NCBI GenBank assembly: GCA_019748095.1
Contig: JAIEQA010000019.1
Location: forward strand, 26,755-90,754
Direction: 5' to 3'
Source: Caulobacteraceae bacterium
GTDB lineage: Bacteria; Pseudomonadota; Alphaproteobacteria; Caulobacterales; Caulobacteraceae
DNA: 64,000 nucleotides
Position numbers and translations under genes: made by a program. Every line of letters begins with the position of its first letter. Positions within the stretch are counted from its first letter, which is position 1. This document shows, one piece after another, positions 41,239 to 43,924 of this stretch. The notes beneath the pieces are model-generated. The model had not been told where the DNA came from. It worked only from the letters and a program-made list of their open reading frames with translations, and did not search any database.

Positions 41239-41333
41239 TTTCCGCGGCGTTGAAGTGTCGCGCTTCTGGAACCCCGGCACGCCTGCGGGGTTCACCTTCC
41301 AACGTCAGTCATTACCAAAACAGGGAGCCTCGC

Positions 41334-41561
41334 ATGGCCCAAGGTCAGCCCAATCGTCCCTCCGGAGTGTCCAAACGGGGCTTCGCCTCCATGGACCCCG
41401 AACGCCAGCGCGAGATCGCCCGAAAGGGAGGAGCCAGCGTGCCCAGCGAGAAGCGCAGCTTCTCCCAGGACCGCAGCCTTGCCGCCCAGGCCGGCCGCAA
41501 GGGCGGTGAGGCGTCACACGGTGCGCGCCGGCCCGAGGACGTTGAAGGTCAGGCCGAATAG
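41334..41561 (+). CDS. KGG-repeat stress-induced protein
   Basis: This 75-residue hydrophilic protein contains two KGG-type units (KRGFASMDPERQREIARKGGASV and RSLAAQAGRKGGEASHG). They are characteristic of the YciG/GsiB/Con-10 family of small proteins induced by general stress and desiccation, probably disordered and hydrophilin-like. Start chosen: the ATG at 41334 with GGGAG upstream. A strong intrinsic terminator follows. Confidence 0.88.
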   Translation: MAQGQPNRPSGVSKRGFASMDPERQREIARKGGASVPSEKRSFSQDRSLAAQAGRKGGEASHGARRPEDVEGQAE

Positions 41562-41634: not shown

Positions 41635-43794
41635 TCAGGCCGACAGCAGAACCACCGCAACAGACGGATCTGGACTGGTCTCTATGGTCATGACCCGCCA
41701 GCCCGCCGCCTCGGCCATGGCCGTAACCGTGGCCTCGGTGAATTTGCGCGAGCTTTCGGTGTGGATGGTCTCACCGGCCTCGAAGGCGATTGCGACCTCC
41801 CCGATGTGGACCGTCGTGGGACGGTCGGCACGCAGATGCATCTCCATCCGCGACTCCAAGGCATTCCACAGGGCCAGGTGGGAGAACTGATCCAGATTGA
41901 AATCCGCCCCCAGTTCGCGATTCGCACGCACGAGCAGGTTCAGGTTGAACGCCGCCGTCACCCCCTGGGCGTCGTCATAGGCCGCGACCAATACCGCTGG
42001 ATCCTTGACCAGATCGACGCCCAGAATGAACAGGGACGAAGGCCCAAGGCGCTCCCGCGCATTGGCGAGGAAGGCCACAGCCTGATCGGGCTCAAGATTG
42101 CCGATCGTCGACCCCGGGAAGAATCCGATCCGACGCCCGAGTCCCAGTTCCGGCAGCGGGGCCAGATTGAGGAAATCCCCGACCATCGGAGCGACCTCGA
42201 TCCCCGGATAGGCGGCGGCGATACTGGCCGCCGCAGCCTTCAGGGCGTCCTGGCTGATATCGATCGGGACATAGGCCTTCAGTGAGGGAGCGGCATCCAT
42301 CAGAATCCGCGTCTTCTCGCTGGCCCCCGATCCGAACTCCACCAGCACCGCATTGTCGCCGAACGCCCCTGTCAGCTCCGGAGCCAGCGCCCGCAGCAGG
42401 GCCGCTTCCTGCCGTGTGGGATAGTATTCCGGCAGTCGGGTGATGTCCTCGAACAGACGGGACCCCTCGGCGTCATAGAACCATTTCGGCGACAGGGTTT
42501 TGTGGGGACGGGACAGGCCGGCGACCATTTCGGCCCGGAATTTTGCGGTTTCCAGCTTTTCGATCCGCGCCCGGCTGCCCGCGGGGGCGTCTGCCGCCAG
42601 CCTCAATCCTGTGAAGGCCCAACGCTGGTGCGGATAGAAGAAATTGCGATAGGTGACCCGGGCATGTCCCGGCGGGGTCGCAAACGACCCGCCCCGCAGG
42701 ACAAGCTGATTGGCCATGAACTTGCCGTTGTACTCGGACGCCGTGCCCTCGGTCGGACGAAACCCCGGATAGGGCGCATAGGCACTGGAGGTGTGCTGCC
42801 AGACCTCGCCGAACAGGTTGGAAAACACATCGGGGGTGGTGGACGCCGCGCTTTCCCATTCCGCTTCGGTCGGCAATCGCTTGCCGGCCCAGCGGGCATA
42901 GGCCTCCGCCTCATAGGCGCTGACATGACGCACCGGCGCGTCGACTTGCACAGGCTCACGCCCCCCCAGCCCCAGAACGGTCCAGGTGTCGTCATCCAGC
43001 CGCCAGTACAAGGGGGCCTCCCAGCCCTCCCTCCGGACTGCGGCCCAGCCGTCGGCCAGCCACAGCTCGGGCCGGCCGTAGCCCCCGTCGGCCATGAACG
43101 CCAGCCATTGGCCGTTCGTGACAAGGTCGTGATCCAGCAGGAACGGCTCCAGCCAGACCTTGTGGCGCGGGCCCTCGTTGTCGAACGCAAAGGCCGGTCC
43201 GCCGTGACCGATCTCGACCAGTCCTCCTTCAAACCGGGTCTGGCCGCCGCGCCCCGCCTGCAGGGAACCGCCGGGCCGGGGTTCCTGGGCATAGGCCGCC
43301 GGGTCCAGCGGCGAGCGCGCCATCAGGTTCAGCAGGTCCATAAGGAACAGCTCCTGATGCTGCTGATCGTGATGCAGGCCGAGGGTGAACAGATAGGTTT
43401 CGAGGCCGTCGTTCGGCCGCTCAGCCAGCCAGGCCTCCATCCGGCGATCAATCTCGCCCCGATAGGCCAGAACCTCATCCAGTGACGGCCGGGTCATCAG
43501 GCCCCGCTCGAAGCGTTCAACCCGCCGGCCCAGACTGTCATAGTAGGAGTTGAATACCTGCTGCAGGCGCGCGTCGACCGGCTGATAGCCCGGTTGTCCC
43601 GCCAGAATCATGGCTTCGAAGAACCAGCTGGAATGTGCCAGATGCCATTTTCCAGGGCTGGCGTCGGGCATCGATTGCGCGGCAAGGTCCTCGGCCGACA
43701 GGCCTGCTGCGAGGGCCGGCATCGCTGCCCGGACCTCGCGATAGCGTTCCCGATCATCAGACCGGACCGACAGGGTTCGCGCTGTCGCATCCAT
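41635..43794 (-). CDS. EgtB-EgtD fusion: ergothioneine sulfoxide synthase + histidine trimethyltransferase
   Basis: This single 719-residue protein joins two ergothioneine enzymes. Residues 1 to about 402 are EgtB: a DinB-type domain with WHLAHSSWFFE (His51) and LGLHHDQQHQELFLMDLL (His142, His146) as the iron-binding triad, then an FGE-sulfatase-type domain with GKRLPTEAEWE and NLFGEVWQHTSSAYAPYPGF. Residues about 415-719 are EgtD: SPKWFYDAEGSRLFEDITRLPEYYPTRQE, SAM motif VEFGSGASEKT and later FPGSTIGNLEP. EgtD trimethylates histidine; EgtB adds the sulfur. The active-site stretch YRNFFYPHQRW resembles cysteine-using EgtB. Fungal Egt1 has the opposite domain order. No egtA, egtC or egtE is nearby. 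Confidence 0.92.
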   Translation of the reverse strand: MDATARTLSVRSDDRERYREVRAAMPALAAGLSAEDLAAQSMPDASPGKWHLAHSSWFFEAMILAGQPGYQPVDARLQQVFNSYYDSLGRRVERFERGLMTRPSLDEVLAYRGEIDRRMEAWLAERPNDGLETYLFTLGLHHDQQHQELFLMDLLNLMARSPLDPAAYAQEPRPGGSLQAGRGGQTRFEGGLVEIGHGGPAFAFDNEGPRHKVWLEPFLLDHDLVTNGQWLAFMADGGYGRPELWLADGWAAVRREGWEAPLYWRLDDDTWTVLGLGGREPVQVDAPVRHVSAYEAEAYARWAGKRLPTEAEWESAASTTPDVFSNLFGEVWQHTSSAYAPYPGFRPTEGTASEYNGKFMANQLVLRGGSFATPPGHARVTYRNFFYPHQRWAFTGLRLAADAPAGSRARIEKLETAKFRAEMVAGLSRPHKTLSPKWFYDAEGSRLFEDITRLPEYYPTRQEAALLRALAPELTGAFGDNAVLVEFGSGASEKTRILMDAAPSLKAYVPIDISQDALKAAAASIAAAYPGIEVAPMVGDFLNLAPLPELGLGRRIGFFPGSTIGNLEPDQAVAFLANARERLGPSSLFILGVDLVKDPAVLVAAYDDAQGVTAAFNLNLLVRANRELGADFNLDQFSHLALWNALESRMEMHLRADRPTTVHIGEVAIAFEAGETIHTESSRKFTEATVTAMAEAAGWRVMTIETSPDPSVAVVLLSA

Positions 43795-43885
43795 CGATTC
43801 GGCTCCGTGTGGCTGACCGACAGGCGCCGGACTCGTGTGAGTCTACGCTAACACGGTGCTCCCGGTTTCGTTGCCGGGCCGGTCC

Positions 43886-43920
43886 CTGTGCGACGACGGG
43901 GCACGCCCGTCGCCGCACAG
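43886..43920. terminator. Long hairpin between the acyl-CoA dehydrogenase and egt genes
   Basis: Arms CTGTGCG-x-CGACGGG and CCCGTCG-x-CGCACAG form a 15-bp stem, the central pair being a G-U on the minus-strand RNA. It lies 4 bp past the acyl-CoA dehydrogenase stop. No U-tract follows, so it is a terminator-like or 3'-stabilising hairpin. Confidence 0.6.
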
Positions 43921-43924
43921 GCCT

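Follow-up and report, generated by a model that had tools for sequence, protein, structure and literature searches.

A single-chain EgtB–EgtD fusion conserved across Brevundimonas: a predicted bifunctional enzyme of ergothioneine synthesis

Introduction

Jones, Doyle and Fitzpatrick (2014, Gene 549:161) reportedly recognized two independent egtB–egtD fusion events in bacteria. Another article, with authors in common, notes, on the basis of phylogeny, that gene fusion possibly occurred in the evolution of bacterial species, and credits Jones et al. 2014 (PMC5066259). Bacterial EgtB–EgtD fusion is already known. The stand-alone type II sulfoxide synthase of Chloracidobacterium thermophilum, CthEgtB, has been studied closely enough that roles are assigned to its active-site residues, including a catalytic tyrosine pair (PMC10903977, PMC9103826); it takes both cysteine and gamma-glutamylcysteine as donors, and Ala420 is one of two residues whose change shifted donor preference (PMC9103826). 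In Methylobacterium aquaticum 22A, deletion of egtBD abolished ergothioneine (PMC4621440). Here we analyze a stretch of 64,000 nucleotides from a Caulobacteraceae genome (the window) in which both families occur in one open reading frame, and compare it with its relatives in Brevundimonas and beyond.

Results

The fusion gene begins with an ATG at 43794, ends with a stop at 41637–41635 and has zero internal stops (Table 1). A preliminary description had given these coordinates correctly and omitted the strand, which is the minus strand. The N-terminal half scores 500 bits against TIGR03440, for which the curated cut-off is 360, and covers profile positions 3–413 of 413; the C-terminal half scores 364.6 bits against TIGR03438 (cut-off 290.9; positions 2–300 of 301), and the boundary between the two falls between residues 400 and 419. 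Pfam matches to DinB_2, FGE-sulfatase and Methyltransf_33 are found in the fused protein. All of the motifs picked out in the preliminary description are there, namely HLAH (H54), HHDQQH (H142, H146), GSGASEKT (488–495) and PKWFYDAEGSRLFED. With both halves above their curated cut-offs and the frame uninterrupted, the initial reading of EgtB and EgtD in one chain holds, as does its statement that their order is the opposite of that in fungal Egt1: the methyltransferase-first layout of the fungal protein is not found here.

Table 1. Positions in the window of the egtBD gene, its domains and its upstream region
Feature	Coordinates	Strand	Evidence
egtBD fusion gene, 719 aa	41635..43794	-	ORF translation; profile and Pfam matches
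EgtB type II sulfoxide synthase domain, residues 16–400 (DinB-like helical part and FGE part)	42595..43749	-	TIGR03440, 500 bits; CthEgtB residue mapping; Foldseek
Linker, residues 401–418, variable across the genus in length and sequence	42541..42594	-	Alignment of 78 fused proteins; AlphaFold2
EgtD histidine N-alpha-methyltransferase domain, residues 419–716 (SAM motif EFGSGASEKT)	41647..42540	-	TIGR03438; identity to M. smegmatis EgtD; Foldseek
egtBD upstream intergenic region, with clade-conserved GCAAC-N16-TGTT	43795..43924	-	Weak for the window: exact EcfG consensus absent

Since some Brevundimonas relatives have two overlapping ORFs at this locus, one could suppose that two genes were merged into a single frame by an error of assembly. 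This has next to no probability, and for the genus it is already refuted: a single uninterrupted frame spans both domains in 30 of 36 other Brevundimonas genomes, single-contig assemblies among them. Of the rest, one is interrupted by contig ends with the frame passing the junction, three carry two separate ORFs and two gave no match. A named collection of 72 Brevundimonas loci, Caulobacteraceae metagenome-assembled genomes included, gives a complete single frame in 66, two ORFs in four and a truncated gene in two. These counts also rule out a sequencing error hiding a stop or frameshift near residues 402–415, a weak point that the preliminary description had singled out. The EgtB–EgtD join is real and normal for Brevundimonas.

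At most of these loci the gene sits in a common neighborhood (SCP2, acyl-CoA dehydrogenase, egtBD, KGG protein, metallo-beta-lactamase fold protein, trigger factor), the SCP2/acyl-CoA dehydrogenase side being missing at some. The gene for the KGG stress-repeat protein, at 41250–41561 on the plus strand of the window, is convergent with egtBD and adjoins it through most of the genus. The same assembly also holds a second fused EgtBD of 718 aa that is 72% identical (contig C52, 5413–7569); the contig is 8.6 kb long, and genes for YqeY and an ABC transporter ATPase adjoin the fusion there. Parts of this contig show 88–92% identity to contig C85. The one segment that was searched matched no other sampled genome of the genus. 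This protein is either a second copy or comes from a contaminating relative; the assembly is 99.9% complete with 4.25% contamination.

Mapping the EgtB half onto CthEgtB (54.7% identity over 384 aligned residues) places the iron triad H62/H153/H157 at H54/H142/H146, the catalytic tyrosines Y93/Y94 at Y84/Y85, R103/R106 at R94/R97, Q156 at Q145 and the hercynine-binding N414/F415 at N384/F385, all invariant in 78 fused proteins. D52 corresponds to D44, an aspartate in 71 of the 78, and the sole examined catalytic or substrate residue that has changed is A420, which is Q390 here. For this half of the predicted model the best Foldseek matches are the type II EgtB structures 6qkj and 6o6m, and in phmmer CthEgtB scores 422 bits versus 138 for the gamma-glutamylcysteine enzyme MthEgtB. 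By sequence, we assign the EgtB half to type II (Chloracidobacterium-like). SenA (selenoneine) and OvoA (ovothiol) enzymes belong to the same superfamily and give matches of 348.8 bits (NF041186) and 99.3 bits (TIGR04344), which fall below the respective cut-offs of 420 and 400 while EgtB lies far above its own; moreover, the partner domain is a histidine N-alpha methyltransferase, the one of ergothioneine synthesis. It is very improbable that this half is either of those enzymes.

The sulfur donor of this type II enzyme is likely to be free cysteine: the nearest solved enzyme prefers cysteine and EgtC is missing, but position 420 carries glutamine and gshA is present. The donor is a matter of inference because CthEgtB also takes gamma-glutamylcysteine and position 420 differs. 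The C-terminal stretch YRNFFYPHQRW had been put forward as resembling cysteine-using EgtB enzymes; the resemblance is there, with N384 and F385 matching CthEgtB, but by itself it is not diagnostic of cysteine use for the same two reasons. In an alternative scenario, GshA would supply the EgtB half with gamma-glutamylcysteine and an unrecognized amidase would stand in for EgtC. This would accommodate gshA, both gamma-glutamylcysteine-binding arginines (R94, R97), the glutamine at position 420 and the dual donor use of CthEgtB (PMC9103826). It is unlikely, as the protein is closest to the cysteine-preferring type II enzyme by the phmmer scores above and the genome has no EgtC match above cut-off.

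Over 281 aligned residues, the EgtD half shares 50.9% identity with EgtD of Mycobacterium smegmatis, and its predicted model matches 4pip and 4pim in Foldseek. From its sequence it is the predicted enzyme of histidine N-alpha trimethylation.

We then considered how the two halves are joined. An alignment of the 78 fused proteins shows conserved flanks, RWAFxGLRLA at the EgtB end and FRxDLxxGLS at the EgtD start, between which both length and sequence vary freely. The AlphaFold2 model of the fused protein (mean pLDDT 87.8, pTM 0.57) consists of two confident domains whose mutual arrangement is not confident, with linker residues 407–412 below a pLDDT of 50, and Foldseek matched each half separately, to type II EgtB and to EgtD. 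The model fits two independent domains on a flexible tether. The preliminary description proposed that hercynine could be channeled to the iron centre, and we find no support for this in the variable linker or in a model that has no confident domain arrangement. It is distinctly unlikely that the fusion exists to pass hercynine across a dedicated domain interface, out of the EgtD site and on to the iron site of EgtB. Most of the genus retains the fusion, and several lineages have gained or retained it, which may point to some benefit. The evidence against channeling is the unconserved sequence and length of the linker, the low pTM and linker pLDDT, and the two ORFs at the same locus in several Brevundimonas, which make the fusion dispensable. 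A predicted structure without a confident arrangement leaves room for a real interface, and nothing in the model supports one.

The remaining pathway genes were searched for with profiles in the window's genome, where EgtA, EgtC and EgtE all lack a match above cut-off; a complete mycobacterial-type pathway (EgtA, EgtC and EgtE together) is not found. An EgtA-like match is the ordinary glutamate–cysteine ligase gshA (TIGR01436, 525 bits), and two EgtE candidates, on contigs C148 and C117, score better as relatives of cysteine desulfurase and glycine dehydrogenase. The absence of egtA, initially noted for the surroundings of the gene, extends to the whole genome, and the proposed search for egtE and egtA elsewhere returned neither above cut-off. 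As a sign of cysteine use, however, the lack of egtA is weak, because gshA makes gamma-glutamylcysteine; the lack of egtC carries more weight. The EgtE model is stringent, reaching its cut-off in none of 115 alphaproteobacterial genomes, some of which have near-full-length matches of 150–217 bits. No EgtE-like C–S lyase is seen in the 36 sampled Brevundimonas genomes, where the best match is at most 86.3 bits, and for that reason the last step is without an assigned gene in the genus. A search covering part of the literature returned no papers on ergothioneine in Brevundimonas and no activity data for this protein or its homologues in the genus. We infer that ergothioneine is the end product in Brevundimonas, a genus that seemingly makes it without a recognizable EgtE.

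The arrangement of unfused relatives suggests how the fusion came about. In Brevundimonas terrae, Brevundimonas pishanensis and Caulobacter, egtB directly precedes egtD and overlaps it in a different frame (such as ATGA). The EgtB–EgtD order is explained by the fact that bacterial pairs run egtB–egtD, and loss of a stop or a small frameshift gives only that order; the order seen in fungi therefore stems from a separate fusion and not from a different chemistry. Judging from these gene arrangements, the fusion most likely formed in situ when neighboring or overlapping genes were joined by stop loss or a small frameshift. Many unfused species, represented here by six loci, have egtB and egtD in one frame with just one stop codon separating them, a single point mutation from fusion.

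The spread of this domain order, which the preliminary description had suggested surveying, extends beyond Brevundimonas to at least seven other genera. In a 387-genome sample of the class, five genomes from four families were confirmed to carry a single-frame fusion, and a 398-genome sample of the phylum added three more, two belonging to further genera within the same family and one from beyond the class; these counts are lower bounds, as inspection covered only the top-ranking loci and long frames. Seven further long open frames considered as fusions each proved to be two ORFs. On a 62-row tree of both domains, a quick tree with many open forks, six changes are required to account for the fused state, and well-supported branches force at least four of them. 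A single origin with all fused proteins in one clade is rejected (AU test, p ~1e-58, for a group chosen after the first tree had been seen). The sequences are compatible with repeated fusion, repeated splitting or both. The two-ORF Brevundimonas are not supported as a basal ancestral state, being nested among fused forms in trees with many open forks, and secondary splitting within the genus is possible on these trees.

Lastly, we looked at the region upstream of egtBD. An EcfG-type promoter, GGAAC-N16/17-CGTT, is present at 31 of the 72 Brevundimonas loci as opposed to 1.4% of 380-base windows drawn at random from those loci, a roughly 30-fold enrichment. The upstream region at 43795–43924 has no exact match to this consensus; instead, the clade to which it belongs conserves GCAAC-N16-TGTT, possibly a degenerate variant of the EcfG promoter. 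The general stress response regulon of Sphingopyxis granuli includes egtB and egtD (PMC7083833).

Discussion

Very probably, the protein is bifunctional and catalyzes both of the initial committed steps in aerobic ergothioneine synthesis, with independent tethered domains that were fused in place from a gene pair. The C-terminal EgtD domain would trimethylate histidine to hercynine with three SAM, and the N-terminal EgtB domain, with Fe(II) and O2, would attach a thiol donor to C2 of the imidazole ring of hercynine. The donor is most likely free cysteine and the product would be hercynylcysteine sulfoxide, after which a C–S lyase would finish the pathway. The fusion would fix a 1:1 stoichiometry and the proximity of the two catalysts, with no tunnel between them. 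A bolder reading, that the fusion has been repeatedly selected in proteobacterial ergothioneine synthesis, with hercynine handed on directly and the pathway finished by a C–S lyase unrelated to known EgtE, has little chance of being right as a whole.

What this locus offers is a predicted one-polypeptide route to hercynylcysteine sulfoxide documented across a whole bacterial genus, in the order opposite to that of fungi; its useful additions are the view across the genus, the recurrence of the fusion and the missing lyase. Unfused close relatives at the same locus amount to a natural paired experiment on the benefit of enzyme fusion, and a single egtBD gene may be handy for ergothioneine production.

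Among described systems, CthEgtB (6qki, 6qkj, 6o6l, 8qf6) shares with the EgtB half, at 54.7% identity, the iron triad, Tyr93/94, Arg103/106, Gln156, Asn414, Phe415 and Asp52, but it stands alone without an EgtD domain and has Ala420 where the Brevundimonas fusion has glutamine. M. smegmatis EgtD (4pim, 4uy5), with 50.9% identity, has the same fold, the SAM motif and many pocket residues in common with the EgtD half, but is a separate protein encoded in a five-gene egtABCDE cluster. OvoA (8khq) likewise places a sulfoxide synthase before a C-terminal SAM methyltransferase; it differs in methyltransferase family and in substrate order, and its profile score here is far below the cut-off. Fungal Egt1 (N. 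crassa, S. pombe and EgtA of A. fumigatus, the last of 844 aa) combines both activities in one chain and takes cysteine as donor, but has the methyltransferase first and the sulfoxide synthase second. In Methylobacterium aquaticum 22A, also an alphaproteobacterium, egtB and egtD are adjacent as two tandem genes, with homologues of egtA, egtC and egtE reported elsewhere in the genome. The bacterial fusions reported by Jones et al. 2014 are alike in having EgtB and EgtD in one protein; here the fusion is documented in Brevundimonas and at least seven further genera.
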